Shown: positions 613 to 46,352 of the stretch, in pieces
Layout of the letters: each line of letters begins with the position of its first letter
Numbering within the stretch: position 1 is the stretch's first letter
Assembly: GCA_005222125.1 (NCBI GenBank)
Contig: CP029202.1
Location: 620,001 to 684,000, forward strand
Direction of reading: 5' to 3'
Length of the DNA: 64,000 nucleotides
Origin: Spiroplasma melliferum
Lineage (GTDB): Bacteria > Bacillota_I > Bacilli_A > Mycoplasmatales > Mycoplasmataceae
Program-made: the position numbers and the translations under genes
The notes under the pieces: generated by a model
The model's input: only the letters and a program-made list of their open reading frames with translations
What the model was told of the DNA's origin: nothing
Database searches by the model: none

Positions 613-2241
613 ATGAAAAAACTATTAAGTTTATTAGGTATTGGATTATTAACAACAACTGGCACAACAAGTGTTCTTGCTTGTCAAAAGCAACGAACTG
701 ATTATTCTGACAGTAAAGATGATGATAAAAACAATGGTAAAGACGACAATAAAGATAAAGAAAATCAGGACCTTGAAACTTTTAATAACATTATTAGAAT
801 GGCAAAGACTGGTTTTCAAGACCTATTATTTAAGGAAGTAGTATTAGGGAATACTAGTGACTTGTTAAAAGGATATGAATGAGTTAGTAAGAAGGAACCA
901 CGGATAACGTTACAAGGTAATAATTCTGAACATCAAGCTTTAATTAATTATTTTTTAGCAATGTTTCGTGATGTTTATAATATTGTTAATCAACAAATTA
1001 TTAATGAATATCCAAATTATTATTTAAATTCTGATCCATTAAGTTTTAATGATGATGATTATGTTATTAGTCTTAATTTTATTGATTTAAAACAAATGAA
1101 TGAAAGTTTAGACTTAAAGATTGAAGGAATTGAAAAGGTTAAAGCTGTTCGCATTGATTTTAATATTAAATATGATGTTAAATTTAAATCATTAATTTCA
1201 ACACAAGAATGCCAAACAAACTTCAATATGACAAATAATGTTGAAATATTTAGTAAATTATATGATGGTAGTTTTATTTACTTTCAAAATAATTTATTAC
1301 AATGATTATCAAGTATTAAAACTGTTAAATTAAATGAAGGTTATTTTAAATCCTTATATGATGACTTTTATCTTGATTTTGGGATGGATGATTCGAATTT
1401 AGATTCCAAGTATAAAATGACATTAAAAGAGTTTATTAAAAGTAATCAACAATTAGCAAAACTTGATATTTCATATAATGAAGAAAGCTCATTTACATGA
1501 ATAAAAAATTCTCTTATTGAACATCATCGTCCATCGGATAAAGGCCTTGATTTTGACTATTTATCAAGAAATCGGTTAAAACATTGAGGCGGTAATGAAC
1601 CTTCTACAGCTAAAGCGGAATCTTTTGTAAAGCAATATAAACAATTAGTTCCAAAATTAGATCAAATAACAAATAACATGTTAAATTTAGCAACACTTGC
1701 TTTAAAATTAGATTATATTAATATTTATGGAATGACATTAAAAGGATATATGAAAGATTCACAAAATGTTATCTTTGAATCAAATGTTAGGTTATCAGCC
1801 GATGCTCTTAATACAAAGTTAAGTAATTTTGGGAATTTAATTATTACTTTTTTAAAATTTTATAATATCACTTATGATGGGATCCGTTTTAACTTTCAAG
1901 TTAATGCCATTGATTTTGATCAAATTGTTAAAAATGGATTAGAAAATAAAACAATTTTAAAAACATTATTTAAAATTTTTAAATCATCAAATGTGGGACA
2001 AAATTTGGTTGATATTAATTTATTTAATTTTACGCAGGCAAATGGCTATCCTGGTGGGGCCAATTTTGGTTTTAATGGTTCAAATCATCTTATTTTTTCT
2101 ACTCCTGATCCAGGTGGATTTGATGCAACATTTTATTTTGGAAGATCACCATCAATATTTTACTATACACCATTTCAAAAGTTTTTTGGAACAAATAATG
2201 AAGTAATACCTGAAGATCAATATGGGGTTCAAAAAGTATAA
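613..2241 (+). CDS. Hypothetical lipoprotein, 542 aa
   Basis: The N-terminus is a lipoprotein signal peptide: MKK start, hydrophobic stretch and lipobox VLAC, predicting acylation of Cys24. It is followed by a low-complexity acidic linker rich in Asp, Lys and Asn (about residues 30-55), usual in mollicute surface lipoproteins, and then a long mixed alpha/beta region with no motif I recognise. The frame is continuous only when TGA is read as Trp. The start is supported by AAAGGA 8 nt upstream. A strong hairpin terminator follows, so the gene is probably monocistronic. The protein should sit on the outer face of the cell membrane. I cannot assign a function. Confidence 0.85.
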
Positions 2242-2250
2242 AGTATATTA

Positions 2251-2310
2251 AAAGGATTGAGTCCTATTGAATATGGAATAACTCAATCCTAACTAAGTTT
2301 TATTTTTTAT
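2251..2310 (+). terminator. Intrinsic terminator after lipoprotein gene
   Basis: A perfect 10-bp stem (2253-2262 with 2281-2290) encloses an 18-nt loop and is followed by a T-rich stretch ending near 2309. It starts about 10 nt after the lipoprotein stop codon. Confidence 0.8.
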
Positions 2311-2311
2311 G

Positions 2312-2754
2312 TACACTTTTCTTTACATATTCAAAAAAGAGTTGATTTTTTAATGAAAAGAAAACATTATTTTATTTTGCGGTCTTATAAATTAATAGAT
2401 TTGTTGCACTTCATTTTACATAATTCCATTTTAAATTATATATTTTATTATTTTTTCTTGTTTTCTTGCAATCTACAAAATGTGTGTGGTATACTACATA
2501 AATATTTCACACTCGTATTTCTATTTAATATAGTTGTTAATATGATTTTGATAATTTGATTTAAAATTAATAATTTATATATTTATGTGTAGTATAGCAC
2601 TAATCAATAATTATTTAAATTAAGCATTTATAAAGTTTTGAATAACAAGCACATACTTTATTCCAACTTATTCCAACCAGAAGCATCCGAACCCTTTTTT
2701 TCATCTTAATTTTATAGTATAATAAATAGGTAAAAAAGTATGGGGGCTTTAATA
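2312..2754 (+). other. Intergenic region with long imperfect inverted repeat and promoter
   Basis: I see no convincing gene here. A 68-codon open stretch (2353-2559) has no ribosome binding site and reads as AT-rich noise. An imperfect inverted repeat (about 2486-2502 against 2579-2597, built on GTATACTACATAAATA) encloses about 75 nt. A likely -10 box (TATAGTATAAT) at 2713-2723 serves the next gene. Confidence 0.4.
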
Positions 2755-3792
2755 ATGGAGAATAATAAAAAAGTAATTGATTACTGAGATGATTATGACC
2801 CAAATGATTTTGATCCAGCAAAACGACCAACTTCAATTATGCAAGATAAAACAACATTAAGTGATAATAATCAAAATTATGCTAATAAAATTACTAGGTT
2901 AACGAATGATTTTGAAACATATTCATACTATAATGACAAGTTTAATGTTAAACAAAATAATGTTCAAAATGATGTTTTTGACCATAATGATAATTATGAT
3001 GAATTAGATTATTCTGATTTTCAACCAATCGAAGGGGCAGAAATTGACCAGGCAACAGAATTAACTGATTTAGATGAGTTAAATTTAAATAATAAGAATC
3101 GGTTTGTTCCATTTAATGAAAATGATATGGTTGCTCCATCGCTTGATGTTAATAAAATTTATGATCGTTGACAAAAATCAAAAGCTAATTTAATTACGCG
3201 TAAATTAGATGTACTGCGGAACCGAGTTCAAGAACCTCGCATTGAAGGACGTCGAAAATATAGTTTTTATGCTCCTAAATCATTAGAAGAATTATTAAAT
3301 AAACCAGCCCAAGTTGTCTTAGATGCAACTCCTTGTGTTGGGGGTGACGAGGTTTATCCTGACCAAAAATATTTTAATAATCCAGCGTTACTTTCAAAAG
3401 TGCAGGGTAAAAATAATGATAATTTATCATTATCTGACAGCAATGATGAAATAGCATTAATTTCAGATGAACCTTTAGACAATGAACCGTTAACAATGAA
3501 CAACATCTTAAAAAATGCAAAAATAAATCTTGATGCAAGTAAGAAAGAAGCAATCTTTATTAATGATGAAGATGTACTAGATCCCGATAATTTAAATTAT
3601 GAACAACGTTTACGTTTATTAAAATTAGCAGCTGACCCCAATAATGAAGAACGAAAAAAATTGTTACAAATGAAATTAAATAATGGTAGTTTACGTTCCT
3701 TATCCGCAATTGTTAAAGAACGATTACAAAAAGTTCAAACTGGAGAAATTGAATTAGTTGAGGAAACATCCCTTACGAAAGATCATAATTAG
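2755..3792 (+). CDS. Hypothetical acidic cytoplasmic protein, 345 aa
   Basis: The frame is continuous with TGA as Trp (codons at 2785 and 3169). The N-terminal 130 residues are strongly acidic and rich in Asp, Asn and Tyr, which suggests disorder. The C-terminal third is also acidic but more helical (EQRLRLLKLA, RSLSAIVKERLQK). There is no signal peptide or membrane segment. The start is the first ATG after a clear -10 box, with GGGGG 6 nt upstream acting as ribosome binding site. Nothing identifies a family. Confidence 0.75.
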
Positions 3793-3924
3793 AACCATTT
3801 ACAATTTACAAGGAAAAGAAAAAATATTTTTTAGTACAATAACCTATTAATGTTAACACTTTCAAGTTATAATATGAGAAGTATCAGTTTATTTTATTAT
3901 TTATAATAGTAGAGGATGATTACG

Positions 3925-4713
3925 ATGATATTAGGAAATAGTGAAATAGCCTTTATTTTAATTGGATTTTTTATTGCGATTAATATTATTATATTAATTT
4001 TTTTAATTATGTCTTACCGAAATATTTTAGTCCCAATTCCAAATTTAAATAATGCTCCAAGTCAATCAATGATTTCATTAGAAGTTATTGATCGCTATTT
4101 AACGAAAAAGAAAATTACTGGGTTAAAAGTTGTTCGTAAACCAGGCCAAGTGTTAATTACACATTCTTATAAAAAGAAAACATTTTATATTAATGATTTA
4201 CAATTATTTAATCAGTCCTATTTTTTATCAGGAATGGGATTAGATTATGTTTTAGGACGAACATTTTTTGTCACCCAACTATATTTAAAAAATAAACATG
4301 TTCAAACAATGCATTTCTTATTGTATTTAGCTCCACCATTATTACTACTTTTCTTTCTTATTGTTTCATTATTTACAATTATTTTTATTGCCATACTAAA
4401 AACTAACCCCGCCTTGTTAGACCATAATAATTTCTTTTATTTTATTAATCGTTATGGAGTCTTAAACTTATTATTAATTTTTATTATTGCAACATATTTA
4501 ATTTTATTAAGCTTTAATGGCTATTTTAAACAAAATTTAGAAAATTGATATGAAACAGAAATGCGACCATTTGTTAAAAAAGAATTCCCGGAATTATATG
4601 ATGATTGAATTATTGCCCGTAGTTATTCGCGGAGTATTCAGTTTACATATATTTTTGGTTATAATTTTATTTTTAAAAAGATTTATAAGTATACCGGACC
4701 CTTTGGCCTTTAA
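3925..4713 (+). CDS. Membrane protein, possibly a degenerate YugP-like protein
   Basis: The product has 262 aa with TGA as Trp. It has a long N-terminal membrane helix, a soluble segment of about 100 residues, two further helices and a basic C-terminal tail. I chose ATG 3925 because AGAGGA (3911-3916) is correctly spaced for it; the ATG at 3916 overlaps that box. The soluble segment (ITGLKVVRKPGQVLITHSYK...FYINDLQLF) follows the strand pattern of YugP-type zinc metallopeptidases, but the HExxH zinc motif of that family is absent where it would be expected. If related, the protein has lost catalysis. That relation is an inference. Confidence 0.7.
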
Positions 4714-4733
4714 CAGAGTAGGGGAGAGAAAGA

Positions 4734-5990
4734 ATGAAAGTTATTTTTCATATTGATATGAATAGTTTTTTTGCTAGTTGTCATCAAGTTGCTAATCCCC
4801 ACTTACAAGGAAAACCACTCGTTGTTGCCAATTCATCACGTCGAGCAGTTGTAACAACAGCAAATTATGAAGCACGGCAATTAGGTATTAATAGTCCAAT
4901 GCCTTTATATAAAGCAAAAGAAATTTGTCATCATCTTGAAGTTGTTAAGTAAGATTTTGGCTTGTATGTTGATTTTGCTCAAAAATTATTTGATTTTATT
5001 AGTATGCATTATACGAATAAAATTGAAGTTGCTTCAATTGATGAATGTTATATTGATGTAACTGATATTTATTTAAAATATGGTTCGGCAATGCGATTAG
5101 CGCTTGATATGCAACAAAATGTTTTTCAACAAATTGGATTACCAAATAGTATTGGTATTTCATATAATAAATCATTAGCAAAAATTGCTATCGATATGAA
5201 AAAACCAATGGGAATTACCTTAATTCGACCAGAAGATGTTGCTCAGCTAGTTCAACCATTACCGGTCAATAAAATATTTGGTATTGGTAAACAAGCAACT
5301 CATCGCTTAAATGAAATTGGGATTCATACGATTAAAGATTTAGCAGAGTTTGCTGATATTACAACATTAGAAATCATTTTAGGCAAACAAGCGTATGGTT
5401 TTGTTGAACGAGCTAATGGTGGTGGTGAACAACAATTAAGTTTTGAACATAATCAACTAAAACAAATTGGGAATGAAACAACATTTGAATATGACTTAAT
5501 TGATTATGAAGATATTAAGAATAAAATTTATTTATTAGCAAAACATGTTAGCCAACGAGCAACAAAACGAACAATGGTTGGAAATGTAATTTATGTTACA
5601 TTTAAAAATGCTAATCGAAAACGTTTTACGAAACAGCAAACAATTAAAAAATATACTAACTTGCTAGATGATATTTATTCAGTGGCAATTATATTATTTG
5701 AGCAATTTTGATCGGGTCAACCAATTCGATTAATTGGTGTTGGTTTACGAGGAATTATTAGTAAATATGATTTAAAAGAACAACTTTCATTTGAATCATT
5801 AGGAACATTGCAACCAGATACTGTAACAAATAAATTAATTAAGGAAATTAATAAAAAATACTGCCAAGATGTGTTATTAACTGGCCAAAAATTAGAAGAA
5901 ATAAAATACTTATTACATAGTCAAACAAAATATATTCAATCAGATCAGCGGATTTTAGATGAAACAAAATTAAAAGAAAAGGGGAAGTAA
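4734..5990 (+). pseudogene. dinB: DNA polymerase IV, interrupted by an in-frame TAA
   Basis: This is a Y-family translesion polymerase. The N-terminus has HIDMNSFFASC with the first catalytic Asp, and the palm motif SIDECY is present near residue 101. Little-finger sequence follows to the end, and total length is normal (418 codons). The frame is intact apart from TAA at 4950-4952, codon 73, where orthologues read through; a Gln or Lys codon could reach TAA by one substitution. The stop lies before the second catalytic acidic pair, so the truncated product cannot polymerise. The start is supported by GGGGAGAG upstream. It follows the membrane-protein gene by 20 nt. Confidence 0.85.
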
Positions 5991-26083: not shown

Positions 26084-26763
26084 TTATTTTATTTTGATGT
26101 ATAAAGTTTTTACTTTTTGTTTAAAATCATAATGTGTTTTAAGATTATTTATAAAAAATAATGAAGGCTTACTATTTTTAGCCCCATAATTTTTAGGATT
26201 AAAATCTGGAACTTTTTTATATAAATTTTCAATTATGACCGAAAATTGTACAAAACCTTTTTTGTTTCATTACTTTTTGTGCTATTATTTTTTACCAATT
26301 CTTTTTTATCATTAGAGGTTTTCGCCTTTAAAATTTTATCAACGCTTATAAATCGATGATAAAGTTTTTTATAATCTTCTGCATTACGAATTACACCGGC
26401 TCCAATCACCGTTTTATTCTTTTGTTTAATTCTTCTAACAATGGGAGCAAAATCTAAATCACTTGTAGCTAGACAGAAACAATCAACATAATCTTTTCTT
26501 AATCATTCCATTACATCTAAAGCAATTCTAATATCAACCGCATTTTTCTGAGTTGAATACGTTGTTTCAACAATAAAATCATTAAAACCATATTTCTTTC
26601 CTTTTTCATTCATTTTTGTATCATTTGAATTGGAATAAAAGGCTCCTTTATAGATCACATTTCCCATTTGTTCTAATTCATCAAATAAAATATTTAAATC
26701 CTCCTCATTATTAAAATTATCAAAATCAATCATCACAACAATTGTTTTATTAGTTATTTCCAT
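26084..26763 (-). pseudogene. NYN-domain RNase with C-terminal LOTUS/OST-HTH domain, frame disrupted
   Basis: The first 176 codons encode a NYN (PIN-like) domain. It has MIDFDNF with acidic residues at 13 and 15, DIRIALDVMEW, and ATSDLDFAPIVRRI, typical of LabA/DUF88 nucleases. The frame ends at TAA 26233. One frame back, the sequence continues as VPDFNPKNYGAKNSKPSLFF, the signature of an OST-HTH/LOTUS RNA-binding domain, to 26084. The switch falls at six A on the coding strand (26258-26263) in the context A AAA AAG, so a deletion, a read error or -1 frameshifting are all possible. The NYN domain alone could still act. Confidence 0.75.
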
Positions 26764-33487: not shown

Positions 33488-33988
33488 ATGAAAAAGATTT
33501 TAAGTATTTTAGGAGCAATTTCATTAGTAGGAACAAGTACAACAAGTTTAATTGCTTGTAATACACCAATATTATATACACCCGAAGAATTAAAAGAACT
33601 AAAAGAAAAAAATAACATAACTACAAAAGATGGTATTTTAGAATGAATAACACCACAAGAAAAACCATTTATTACTGTTGATAATAAATATTATTATGTA
33701 GTATGAAAAGGTCAAAATTGAAATATTACTAAGTTTAAAAATAATAATCTAATAGATAGAACTCATCCAAGTATTGAAATTGATAAAAAGAATGAAGATG
33801 AAAATTATACTTTAAATTTAGAATGAAAATCACCGATGGTTACAATTGTTATTCGTTCTTATAGCGTTATAAGTGATTGACCTGCTCCAAGATTTAAATC
33901 AGTTTATCGTTGAAATTTAGATACACAAGAACCTAATTTAGAAAATTTAGAAGTTGATAAAGATGGCAATATAATTGTCAATAATTAA
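33488..33988 (+). CDS. Prophage lipoprotein, 166 aa
   Basis: A signal peptide with lipobox SLIAC (acylated Cys24) is followed by a 140-residue strand-rich domain and an end reading VDKDGNIIVNN. It has its own promoter (TATATAATG box near 33446-33454) and terminator, so it can be expressed from a silent prophage. Its signal peptide is nearly identical to that of the second prophage lipoprotein (39915-40289), and their C-termini are alike. Superinfection exclusion or host surface modification is a plausible role, by inference. Confidence 0.85.
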
Positions 33989-35081: not shown

Positions 35082-36418
35082 TTAATTCACCATTTTTCTT
35101 TTAACAACTAATTTAGTAATTTTACCAGATGCATTTTTTGTAATTAATACAATTTTTCCACTTGCTCTTAATTGGGCATATTGATTATTATTATCAGTTG
35201 TAGTAATACCATTTGAAACATTACCTGTAAAATTTTCACATGTTGATAAATAAAAACTATTTAAATATTCATTATCAACTCAAACTTTATAAATATACTT
35301 ACTTTTATCTCAATTTTTAATTTGATATTCATTTGAATTTATAATTAAATCACTAGTATCAACAATTTCTCAAGTAGGTAAATCTTTTTTTGTAAATAAA
35401 ATTTATCAATATATTTTGTAGTCCCAAAAGTATCATCTGTGCTTTCAATACCTGCCACGGTACTATCAATTATATCATAATCAGCTGTATTTTTACCTCC
35501 ACCAAAACTAGGGTCTCAAACTCTTAATTCACCTGTTTCAGAATTAAAATCAGCATTATTACGACCACTAGAATTAGGTAATAAAGTTATTTTATTTTGT
35601 TTTAAATTTGATACTGTAAGTTCATTATTTTCATTTTTTATAATAAATTTATTATCAATTTTAGATTCTTCACTTTGTTTTGCTTTTCATACACCATTTT
35701 CTTCATAAATAGTATCATTATCAAATGGAACTGATAACTCATTATTAGAATTATATATTATTGATTTATTATCAACTTTAGATTTATTATTAGGATTAAC
35801 TTTTAAATCTAATTTTTTTGGAATTGCATCAGATTGATTTAAAAAACTAATTAAAATTGAATTATCACTTGAAGTAATATTATTATTAGCAATATAATTA
35901 TTTCTAACTCAATCATATTGTGCATAACCTGCACCTTCATCAAATTCAAATCTTCATCCATTACCAAATCATGATCTATTTTTTTCTTTTAAATTACCAA
36001 AGCGAATATTTTCATACAAACCAGCATTAATTAATATTTTTTGTACTTCATCAGGTACAAATTGCATATCATCAGGTTGTTGAATACTATAAGATTGACT
36101 ACCTTGTGAAAATGTTGTTGCTTGTAAAAGATATTCAGTACCTTTTGATAATCAATGTAAGGTATATATTGCTGTTGCTCATTTAACACCAATTTGTTGT
36201 TCTTCTGTTAAATTATCAATATTATCAGCATACCCAATATAACCACCAGTTCAATCATTAATTTTAACCGAACTTAAATTAATAGCTTTATTAATTCATT
36301 CATCACTATAAGTTTGTGGATTATCTTCAAAATCTTTTGTTCAAAAACCTGATTCTTTTAATTCTTTAATCGATATATACATTCATTTTAAAGTAATATC
36401 TTTTAATTCAATTGCCAT
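35082..36418 (-). CDS. Phage fibre-like structural protein, frame break at A AAA AAG
   Basis: The frame-0 product is 357 aa and ends at TAA 35345. If the frame shifts -1 at A AAA AAG (35390-35384), it extends to 445 aa. The extension reads as normal protein (EIVDTSDLIINSNEYQIKNW, later GKITKLVVKRKMVN) and its stop abuts the next gene's start, showing it is truly coding. The middle contains two related Asn-rich segments (DNKSIIYNSNNELSVP and DNKFIIKNENNELTVS), typical of tail fibres. AAGGAG precedes ATG 36418. Either programmed frameshifting, a mutation or a read error explains the break. Confidence 0.7.
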
Positions 36419-37558: not shown

Positions 37559-38958
37559 CTATGGATTTAATCTTCCAAATGTTCCTTTAATTTCTAATGT
37601 TCCTTCATATTCACCAGCACCTGTTAATGTTGCTGTATAAGTACCATATACATATGGTGGTCCATCTTCAGGTTTTTTAGTAACTACTACACTATCATCT
37701 GCAATATTAAAATCATTAATAGTTGCATCAGAGTTTTTAGCAATTACAGCATTAGCAATTTGACCACCAACTGGCTTATCATCATTATTTGCTACAGGAA
37801 CATTTTCACCACTTAAATCAGTAGTTTTGATTAAATCTCCGATTGCTTTTTTGCAGGTGGTGTCAACTCCATTCATGGTGCTAATTCAAATGTTATTCCA
37901 CGATTTGCTTGTGCTTTAGTAATATCATCATTACTTGGGTCTCCTGTTACATATAAAGTATGTAATCCACGCATAAAAGTTGGTAATGAATATAATCCAC
38001 GACCCATATAACGAACATTTCCAGTATTTTGATTAATTACTTGTTGTATACTTCTTCAACCTTGAGGCATTGCACAATCTTGTGTATGACCAGTAAATCC
38101 TCAAGCTCCTACTGTTTTATTATAATTTAAAGTAAAATCTAAATCTTTATTAATTCCAGTATCTTTACCTTTTTTAAATTCACGTCCTAAATATCAACTT
38201 TCAAATACATCTACTCCTAGAATCATTTTTTTTCATAATTGACCAGTAGCTAAAGTATCTGCAGCTATTTGTTCTAAAATTTTAATATATGCTTTTGAAA
38301 ATTGAGCAAAAGCTGGCATTGATACATGAACCATTAAATCATCTTTTTTAGTACCAAACATTAATGCACTAACTTTTTGAACTAAATTAATTGAAATATC
38401 ATTAATTTTATAAAATGTATCTTGTGCTGTATCAGTATCAGTTGGTATTGGTAATTTAACAAATTGACCTGTTGCAATACATGAATCAACTACTCCTTGT
38501 AAATAAATTGCATTCATATTTGAATATCAATTACGAGTAATTGTTCTCATTCATTCTCCAATTGTAGTAGTTCGTACTTCAACTGGTGATTCCATAAAAC
38601 GAACAACATCAAATGTAGGAACATCATATTTAAATGTTAACATTTGGTCCATCATAACAGTTGCTCTTCGTACTGCTACAGATTGTTGTTCCATTCCAGA
38701 ATCCATATCATAATCAGTACCTCAAACCATACGTTCTGGAAATACATATTGTCCTTGCTCTCAACCTTCTGCCATAGTTACTTGTTGAGCAGTTAACATC
38801 ATCATTTCAGTAGCATCAATATATTCACTATCTGCTTCTAAAATTCTTTTAATTTGTAAAACAGCAATATCACCAATTGCTTTTTCTGTTGCAGTATTAC
38901 CACCAACTTGAAAAACTGTTGGTAATGCAATACTTGATTTTCCACCTACTTTTGCCAT
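37559..38958 (-). CDS. Major capsid protein with -1 frameshift C-terminal extension
   Basis: The frame-0 product is 375 aa and ends at TAA 37831. Shifting -1 at A AAA AAG (37852-37846) gives 466 aa ending at 37559. The extension is about 95 residues, strand-rich and Ig-like, with VYGTYTATLTGAGEYEGTLE. The base protein has long conserved blocks (GMEQQSVAVRRATVMMDQML, FDVVRFMESPVEVRTTT) and follows a scaffold-like gene, as expected for a capsid. The frame-0 tail after the site is only four codons, the usual layout of programmed frameshifting that adds a surface domain. A single lost A would look the same. Confidence 0.8.
37846..37852 (-). promoter_or_regulatory. Candidate -1 ribosomal frameshift site A AAA AAG in capsid gene
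   Basis: Zero-frame codons are GCA AAA AAG; slipping back one base gives AAA AAA then GCA, matching the open downstream frame. ATGGAG lies about 15 nt upstream, a possible stimulatory Shine-Dalgarno-like element. I see no strong downstream stem. Confidence 0.5.
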
Positions 38959-39914: not shown

Positions 39915-40289
39915 TTATTCTAAAACAATATTTCCTTGATCATCAATGTTTGGAACATCATTATCTGTTGGAACTGAATTTTTTGTTCAAATATAAACTT
40001 CTTTTCAATTACTTGATCAACCCAATAAATCAGGTCTTCATTTATTATCTCCTTCTGTTCCATCTCAAAGTTTACGATTTATATGATATTTATTATCATT
40101 AGTGCGATGTATTAATAAATATCATTTATCAGTTGGTTTATTTTCATTAAATGGTTTATCTTTTTTGCATAATTCTTTTCAATTTCCAATTATTTTATTT
40201 TCACATTTATCATGTGTACAACTTATTAAACTTGTTGTGCTTGTTCCTACTAATGATATTGCACCTAAAATACTTAAAATCTTTTTCAT
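39915..40289 (-). CDS. Second prophage lipoprotein, 124 aa
   Basis: The signal peptide MKKILSILGAISLVGTSTTS ends in SLISC (Cys24) and matches that of the 33488-33988 lipoprotein at 21 of 23 positions or more. The mature part differs but is again small and aromatic, ending VPNIDDQGNIVLE, similar to the first protein's VDKDGNIIVNN. Many Trp are TGA-encoded. It is embedded in the late operon, so it may be made with structural proteins. Role unknown; immunity or release are possibilities. Confidence 0.85.
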
Positions 40290-43300: not shown

Positions 43301-43388
43301 TATCAGTTGAAGCCATTCGCATTGCTGTATATAATACTTGGTTATTAATTTGTATTGCTTCTTTTGAATTATTTTTGTTTAAATTCAT
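40341..43388 (-). CDS. Large phage structural protein, 1015 aa
   Basis: A continuous 1015-codon frame with TGA as Trp. The protein is soluble, strand-rich and Asn-rich, with blocks such as ITGNATIIAQWKNAFKLEQV, STEKQFGQNDELSLYIVLNN and AGQGYIPYDMFRNETEDQVG. It overlaps the portal gene's end by 20 nt and is the largest late gene. Position and composition suggest a tail tube, tail knob or baseplate component. There is no long helical stretch as in a tape-measure protein. That fits a short-tailed phage, but only weakly. Confidence 0.75.
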
Positions 43389-44739
43389 CTTTTATACCTC
43401 CAGTATTATTATTTTCATTATCTTTATCATTTTCATTATCAATATCAAATTTAGCATTAGTTTCTAATTGTTCTTTATCAATTCTTTCAACTTCTTTAAT
43501 AGCAAATGTCATTGGAATACTATCAACAATATGAATATATTTTGCACGAGACATTGTGGCATTTTCTAATCGTGTATTATTTGTATCAACTAAACGCATT
43601 TGGTCAATAATTCCTGCTTGTTTAAATTTTAATGAGTATGGTCTTTCACTTTTAAATCAATTATTATTATCAACTTTTCAATATTTATGAAATATTCATC
43701 AACAATCAAATAAACGATATAAATAATCTAATAAAAATTCTTGTCATACTGCTTGTGATTCAATATCTTCTGCTTGCATTATTAATGTTTGATTTTGATT
43801 AGTATAAGTTCCTTGTTCATCTGCTTGCCATGATAATCCAATTCCACGAAATACTAATTTTAAAATATGGTCAGTATCTAAATTATAATCAATAGAATTA
43901 TATTGTCCCTGCGTATAATTAACAGTAGATCCACCACCTTTGGCATCATAATTATTTTGAACAGTTTGAATAACAAAATCACTTTCATAATCATCTCAAG
44001 CATTTTTTTTATTTTTTACATTATCAGCTTCTTCACTTGTAGCCTGAATATAACCTCTTGCCCTTGAAAATCTTCTTGTTTTCTTTTTAATAAATAAATT
44101 ATCTTGTAAATCTTCAATTAATCACATTGTAGGATATATATCAGGGTAAGCATTTAACATAGTACTACTTGCTTGTCCTTGTTGATTAACACGAATAAAA
44201 TTAGGAATTTGTATTAATGGAAAACGACCTAATTTATTAATATATGTTCTTTTTTCAATTCTTAAACTTTTATCTATTTTACCACTAACTGCTCCTGCTT
44301 GAGTATTTTCATCATTAGGATATGAATCAATTTGAATATATTTATCATTAATAATTACATGAAATATATAACCAGTATCATCTTGGTTAGGTAATATTCA
44401 AATATCTGCAGATTGTTCTTCTTCATTAATTTTAGATACAAAATTAGTAAATAATGCTGTTCCTAACATAATATCTAAATCACCATCTCGTGTTTCATAT
44501 ATAAACATAACAGCCACACCTAATAATGATTTAGTTCATGACATTTTAATTAATTTTTCATATATTTTTCTTTTATGATATCAATTTTGTCAATGTATTA
44601 ATGCTTGTTCATTTTCACTATCGCATAATAATCCACGACCAATTTCCATTCTTACTTTTCTTTGAGCAACAATTAATGGAACATGTAATTTTCAATTACG
44701 ATTATTAAATTCTAATCATTTATCAATATTTTTATTCAT
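43369..44739 (-). CDS. Phage portal protein
   Basis: The 456-aa product forms the ring through which DNA enters the capsid. Position between large terminase and structural genes, length, and segments such as LGRFPLIQIPNFIRVNQQGQ, MWLIEDLQDNLFIKKK and SMTFAIKEVERI-type helix fit portals. The last 40 residues are very acidic and Asn-rich. It starts within the preceding small gene (8-nt overlap). Identification rests on context and general pattern and not on a catalytic motif. Confidence 0.75.
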
Positions 44740-44918: not shown

Positions 44919-46352
44919 TTAAATATACTCCTTTATTAATTGATTATTTACTGATTTAACAATATCTCTAATATATTCGCTTAAAGCATAATAATCAGAA
45001 TCAAATTCATCATCATATAAATCAATTATTTCTTCTTTACCACCATTTGGTTTTTCTTTTCACTGAATCATTGGATATTCAGTATTACTTGCTTCTAATA
45101 TAATATCATGTGTCATTTTCCCACTAATCATAGCACCAATAAATGCATTAACTCTATCAACAACTATTCATATTGATTTATCTACTTCTTCAAATCTTAA
45201 TAATCTACCATACCTATATTTTAATTTTTCACGGTTTAAAACATCAATAAATGCTCTTCCACCTGCACCTAAATCAACATTAATAGTTAAACCACTTTCA
45301 ATAAATATAGTACTATTTTTTAAACTAGATAAATAAAATTTAATAATATCATTTGCTTGTTCAAAAACATCTTTATATTCCATTGTTGCATTTGAATGAG
45401 TATATTTACCTATTTTATGTACTTTTTTTAAAATTGAATTATATACTCATAAACTAGCACTTGTTTTATGCCCATTAGGACTATCTGCTTGAGCAAAATC
45501 AACACCAGCAAGTATTTTATAAAAGGACCATGTTAATTTAGTAAATTTTAAATATCTATCAAATACAGCACCTTGAACTTGTCCAGGTAATCCTCAACTT
45601 CATACTCTTGCTCTTGCTGGATCTAAATGTTCTAATTCTAATAATGTATTTTTAACATCAGCAGATAACATATTATTCATTCTTCAAGAACTATAATGAT
45701 TTATTATTTTACGATTAAATCGATTAAATTTACCAATTTGCTCATATTTTGATTTCATTATTTGTTCATTAAATGGCATTAAATTATTACAATAATCAAT
45801 TAAATATCTTCGAAGAGATTCAGGATTACATGTATTAATTTCTATTTTCTTTTTAGCACCACGCAATGCAAATCTAATTTCTGAAAAATCATTTTTATCA
45901 TATTGGTCTGATTCTTCTCTTCAATCAATTACTAAAGCATATTTTTCTAAATCAGCAAAAGCTTTTAATTTTTCTCTTTTTGTTTGAGTATGCAAGCCAC
46001 GACAAATAATTGTAGTTCCATTCGATAATGATAATTCATAATTACTTAAATTAACATTATAATTAATATTACTCTTATTAAGAGTATTAACAATATTTTG
46101 AAAAATACTACTTCTTACATCTTTATTCATTTTCATACTAGCAAATATAAAAATAGGTTTTTTAATATATAAACTAATTCCAACTGATAAATCAATAATA
46201 TCTAATACTGTTCAAGTTTTACCTGAATATCTTGTACCAATTAAATTATATTCATCAGCAGGTTCATATAATTTATTTCAAATATTTAAATTAGTATTTT
46301 CTTGTAATAATCATCGTGGTATTTCTTCCAAGTAACTAAAATTTAATAACAT
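44919..46352 (-). CDS. terL: Terminase large subunit
   Basis: This 477-aa DNA-packaging motor has an ATPase domain with Walker A GTRYSGKT (residues 39-46) and Walker B LVIDWREES (about 140-148). It also has a C-terminal RNase H-like nuclease with AGVDFAQADS, NVDLGAGGRAFIDVL and later acidic residues. Length fits the family. It starts within the small subunit's stop codon (TAATG). Intact frame with many TGA Trp codons. Confidence 0.92.

Follow-up and report, generated by a model that had tools for sequence, protein, structure and literature searches.

Frameshift-derived C-terminal (Ig-like) domains have been described in the capsids of phages T3, Lactobacillus A2, Listeria A118/A500 (-1 shift) and PSA (+1 shift), and it has been proposed that chance decides whether a domain brought in by recombination ends up in frame or out of frame (PMC5009743). 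A_AAG is recorded as a minimal -1 site, and in bacteria where A_AAA_AAG is slippery, tRNA-Lys(UUU) is the sole lysine tRNA (PMC5009743). We analysed 64,000 nucleotides of Spiroplasma melliferum DNA (CP029202.1, positions 620,001 to 684,000; hereafter the window), in which a gene that appears to encode a prophage capsid has this heptamer near its 3' end. A literature search that covered few subscription papers found no report of such frameshifting for Spiroplasma. The kind of mechanism is already known; the host group, the type of domain and a portable cassette are the new part.

The capsid gene and its prophage

The ORF at 38958-37831 on the minus strand encodes 375 aa when TGA is read as Trp. 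It lies in a head gene block with the following features:

44919-46352, upstream of the capsid: terminase (Pfam match, Terminase_3)
43369-44739, upstream of the capsid: portal-like protein (from position and homology to G006)
37831..38958, - strand: frame-0 capsid ORF, 375 aa, with a conserved core that ends at about residue 368

Two more upstream genes encode proteins of 1015 aa and 161 aa, the latter scaffold-like. The capsid gene adjoins the scaffold-like gene and is downstream of the terminase, the position expected of an HK97-fold capsid. These upstream genes match a prophage in S. phoeniceum P40 (G006) that is homologous to this one, and in S. poulsonii phage MaM-2019a a homologue of the ORF product is annotated as the capsid. 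We modelled the structure of the G006 homologue, which is 79% identical, and obtained a poor model (mean pLDDT 49); its 22 best-ranked PDB matches, which include Che8, PhiM1, T7, phi29 and P22, were all HK97-fold capsids or encapsulins, although these matches were weak, with none below E=0.049. Together, the upstream genes, the annotated homologue and the structural matches support the view, already taken in an earlier note on this DNA, that the predicted product of 38958-37831 is a capsid protein. Capsid homologues were found in 13/149 genomes searched, and a search of IMG/VR returned one partial relative only.

Two genes within the prophage, at 33488-33988 (+) and 39915-40289 (-), encode proteins with near-identical lipoprotein signal peptides (MKKILSILGAISLVGTSTTSL..). 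One of them sits within the structural block, and related prophages have one there too. S. phoeniceum G006 has three related prophage copies close together, at 1.636-1.694 Mb (L034, L035, L036), two of which have decayed through numerous small indels that often fall in homopolymers.

A -1 reading frame follows the conserved capsid core

The 3' end of the capsid gene has the following features:

37867..37870, - strand: GGAG, a Shine-Dalgarno-like motif 14 nt upstream of the heptamer, encoding Met-Glu (from sequence only)
37846..37852, - strand: slippery heptamer A_AAA_AAG, in phase (from sequence)
37559..37846, - strand: -1 frame extension, 95 codons plus TAG, with a predicted beta-alpha-beta4 domain (from sequence, codon usage and a structure model)

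The heptamer consists of an A6 run (37852-37847) followed by G at 37846, where frame 0 reads GCA AAA AAG CAA TCG GAG ATT TAA and so ends at a TAA (37833-37831) four codons past the heptamer. An open -1 frame extends from 82 nt 5' of this stop to the TAG at 37561-37559, which is directly followed by AGGAGG and then the ATG of the next gene. The earlier note had given this arrangement, with 95 codons of -1 frame running to the next gene, correctly to the base. Codon usage indicates that the extension is coding (0.56 per codon, versus 0.43 for the capsid). The capsid core terminates in ..LTPPA with the A-run directly after it, placing the heptamer at the boundary between the conserved core and a variable domain; the window capsid itself lacks the cassette described below. 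Plain capsid has 375 aa, and the fusion product would have 466 aa. We found no relatives of the tail in 60 genomes, phages, plasmids and viral contigs (the last searched as a DNA pattern), and so no homologue against which to assess selection. A search for a downstream pseudoknot or stem-loop at the A_AAA_AAG sites of the window and at the cassette found nothing significant, the best hairpin downstream of the capsid heptamer being weak (z=-1.9). The GGAG motif may be a weak stimulator or may be there by chance.

Relatives carry a conserved frameshift cassette

Intact capsids in genomes of the S. poulsonii type are single ORFs with a domain that we call B fused in frame 0, and the intact capsid of g16, from another genus, is a single ORF with a different domain, A, fused in frame 0. 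The closest capsid relatives, in G003 and G006, are 78% identical to the window capsid and have domain A in frame 0; an overlapping 227-codon -1 ORF starts at the frame-0 stop and provides 219 codons from the junction, encoding two B domains. Comparing the heptamer among related prophages, as the earlier note had proposed, shows that this site is not conserved: a C-terminal module does lie in the -1 frame, but it is joined at a different place and by a different kind of junction, and some fusions are in frame 0.

A cassette is formed by a frame-0 domain A, the junction ATTCA_AAG_TAA_GTAG and, in the -1 frame, ~219 codons that encode two B domains. A search with the B region found it in several Spiroplasma genomes, including those of S. 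citri (on plasmids) and S. phoeniceum, where it makes up the 3' end of genes for four distinct capsid-like proteins:

Carrier 1: window-type capsid, ending FELAPW..
Carrier 2: 383-390 aa type, ..VVEPKGIIKH..
Carrier 3: type of ~500-617 aa
Carrier 4: S. poulsonii type, ..VPIDYTIGKPA..

The junction is present in 22/22 distinct copies (G001, G003, G006 and S. citri plasmids), and inspection of the overlap shows A_AAG as the sole Z_ZZN slip site common to all of them. The -1 ORF is full length in 15 of the 22 copies, with no stop and no indel over 219 codons, and is shortened or broken in the other seven. Cross-species omega for this ORF ranged from 0.38 upwards and was mostly 0.4-0.7 (median 0.64), with a value of 1.83 for one near-identical pair. 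Differences were distributed over the three codon positions as 2028/1375/2143, such that second positions vary least, and in a neutral simulation of one cassette pair the probability of no stop was 0.0055. There is no ATG in the first 111 codons of the -1 ORF, and no start codon in the first 105 other than one TTG, at codon 40 of one copy; this near-absence of early start codons rules out separate initiation. The cassette thus combines the hallmarks of programmed -1 frameshifting, namely a conserved overlap with a slip site and a constrained -1 ORF without a start of its own. We conclude that, for the cassette of the relatives, there is good support for programmed -1 frameshifting, and likewise for the broader view that adding C-terminal domains by -1 slippage is a habit of Spiroplasma phage capsids.

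In the public annotation of the S. citri plasmids, the -1 B region is called from an internal start codon as a 'hypothetical protein' (L042 9334-9675, L043 6316-6660), and so loses its first half and the connection with the capsid. A further arrangement is seen in G010, whose capsid, of the S. poulsonii type, ends ..PSPTPRTIR* (L013, from ~2550-2600 onward) and is followed in the +1 frame by B-type domains spanning ~220 codons. Where the frames overlap there are two rare CCC codons and an AGG, and a +1 shift at CCC_A would join the frames.

Fold and likeness of the C-terminal domains

The earlier note called the window tail Ig-like. We found no Pfam match for the tail, including among Ig-like families and spiralin (PF05215), and its AlphaFold model, of low confidence at a mean pLDDT of 53, shows five strands and one clear helix in the order beta-alpha-beta4, with non-Ig matches in the PDB. 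The tail is therefore probably not Ig-like, as far as this model can be trusted; confidence was low for both structure predictions (the tail and the G006 capsid), and statements on fold rest mainly on the order of elements. Domain A in the model of the G006 homologue has a similar order of short strands, helix and two long strands. Comparison of the tail with domain A by hhalign gave a short motif only (P=0.006, probability 6%), comparison with domain B gave no match, and likeness between domains A and B was not detectable.

A B domain of the S. poulsonii type resembles spiralin (PF05215) weakly (E=0.003, 18.4 bits, below the Pfam cut-off of 25). The depositors of MaM-2019a likewise compared its capsid C-terminal domain with spiralin (OL689226/OL689227), and spiralins are described as membrane lectins (PMC12453411). 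In G001, a 1,260-codon open frame on the small contig C3 (~2066-5695; L098, L101, L104) contains ~16 domain-A-like repeats with a period of 228 nt, 65-71% identical to the capsid domain A. The predicted protein looks like a plasmid-borne adhesin, and its make-up of repeats suggests an adhesin-type role. We infer that the capsid C-terminal domains bind something at the cell surface.

For Spiroplasma phages and plasmid-borne phage remnants, we lean towards a reading in which a portable cassette has been grafted onto four different capsids, a fraction of the shell subunits displays adhesin- or spiralin-like domains, and the A_AAA_AAG of the window capsid and the +1 arrangement of G010 would each have met the same need independently.

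Slippage or base loss at the window heptamer

Two other genes in the window are interrupted at the same heptamer:

35345..36418, - strand: structural gene of the prophage, encoding 357 aa in frame 0, where the in-phase A_AAA_AAG appears again; it bears on whether the capsid break is an indel
26233-26763, - strand: NYN-type gene whose frame 0 also closes after A_AAA_AAG in phase and whose -1 continuation reads ..IENLYKKVPDFNPKNYG..

Both breaks are <12 kb from that in the capsid gene, and both -1 continuations are coding. For the structural gene, the -1 frame goes on for ~100 codons (KKDLPTWEIVDTSD..) to the next gene, the whole stretch being 35090-36418, and the homologues in G002 read in one frame (L180, L188). 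For the NYN-type gene, a relative belonging to another genus has the continuation in frame (L177).

We scanned 1.264 Mb of the 1.32 Mb host chromosome, which has a GC content of 27%. The heptamer occurs in phase 130 times in 324,287 host codons (~1 per 2,500). The chance of finding one within a 27-codon overlap is ~1%, a figure that cannot be treated as independent of the indel explanation because deletions in A7/A8 runs can themselves create an in-phase heptamer, as 15-18% of single-base deletions in such runs do. Coding ORFs contain ~4,900 A/T runs of six or more, and a non-exhaustive scan found ~13 homopolymer breaks. This genome-wide count weakens the idea of uniform assembly error, although errors can still cluster. 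The only lysine tRNA found in the scanned sequence is tRNA-Lys(UUU).

Our main reading, to which we give an even chance, is that the 95-codon -1 ORF encodes the C-terminal domain of the major capsid, reached by -1 slippage at A_AAA_AAG. The ribosome would slip back one base at the heptamer and add the domain, yielding plain capsid as well as capsid with the domain and decorating part of the shell; both forms would enter the virion, with the window copy slipping at a useful rate. The likely origin would be recombination that swapped the 3' domain module out of frame, followed by retention through slippage. This reading is favoured by the in-phase heptamer at the edge of the conserved core, by the coding tail without stops, by the 78%-identical relatives, in which the second C-terminal module lies in the -1 frame, and by the recurrence of that cassette on four capsid types. 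Against it stand the lack of conservation of the site, the absence of significant downstream RNA structure, the lack of a relative of the tail in the genomes searched and the two neighbouring genes, which share the break and are single-frame in relatives, making a local process that loses one A credible. One base of the A-run may have been lost, either undercalled in the assembly or removed by a recent mutation as the prophage begins to decay; the true or ancestral gene would then encode a single-frame capsid of ~466 aa with the domain on every subunit. The earlier note's caution that a missing A gives the same picture was apt, and the in-frame C-terminal domains of the S. poulsonii-type and g16 capsids, other homopolymer breaks in the host genome and the indel-degraded prophage copies of relatives all favour base loss. 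However, few homopolymer breaks occur across the genome, the remaining genes of the structural block match a relative's prophage without breaks, and the tail shows no decay. Moreover, all three local breaks fall at in-phase heptamers, which a random A7/A8 deletion would yield in only the 15-18% given above, suggesting that such sites are tolerated because they slip. Weighing the two local A-run breaks against the rarity of breaks genome-wide, the three heptamers and the single tRNA-Lys(UUU), we regard base loss as a real possibility that falls short of an even chance. The earlier note's canonical -1 site stands as an in-phase heptamer within a two-frame overlap, at which slippage is plausible.

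Two further explanations seem improbable. Transcriptional slippage, in which RNA polymerase makes mixed mRNAs, some in the tail frame, would give the same protein products; an A-run in a 27% GC genome would suit it, and slippage at homopolymers is documented in the literature, including in Buchnera. We consider it unlikely, since an A6 run is short for this process, and the junction of the relatives has just three A before G, such that the family habit is independent of long runs. Even less probable is that the -1 ORF is a separate gene, for which the ATG at 37876 (43 nt ahead of the frame-0 stop) would serve as start. No ribosome-binding site precedes this ATG, whereas the neighbouring genes have AGGAGG, and the relatives' -1 ORF lacks an early ATG.

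If ribosomal slippage at the capsid gene is correct, frameshift-decorated capsids extend to the Mollicutes. The related capsids would form a natural series of in-frame, -1 (with two kinds of site) and possibly +1 arrangements, offering a direct test of out-of-frame recombination followed by rescue through slippage. Current annotation drops or truncates the -1 domains. Should the domains prove to be spiralin-like lectins, they may reveal how phages attach to insect- and plant-associated spiroplasmas.

Comparison with known systems

The arrangement in Spiroplasma resembles that of T3, A2, A118, A500 and PSA in that the 3' domain of the capsid gene lies in another frame, two forms are expected, and the direction of the shift, or fusion in frame, varies between relatives; the G010 capsid is like that of PSA in its candidate +1 shift on a proline codon. 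By contrast with these phages, the window phage is a mollicute phage in which TGA encodes Trp, and its domain is beta-alpha-beta4 in a low-confidence model rather than Ig; the domain of the Spiroplasma relatives is weakly spiralin-like, and the frameshift part is a cassette common to four capsid types. MaM-2019a (OL689226/OL689227) has a homologous capsid core (~24% identity) and a C-terminal domain, but that domain is fused in frame 0, and likeness to spiralin PF05215 is confined to the weak match of the S. poulsonii-type B domain, the window tail having none. The A_AAG site of IS1222 (PMC5009743) is the same minimal Z_ZZN slip as that of the relatives' cassette, where, however, it stands directly before a stop codon in phage capsid genes. 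The window heptamer differs from that of E. coli dnaX (PMC5009743) in lacking significant downstream structure, in having only a weak SD-like GGAG 14 nt upstream and in its putative function; it shares with dnaX the same heptamer, in the same phase, in a host with a single lysine tRNA (UUU).
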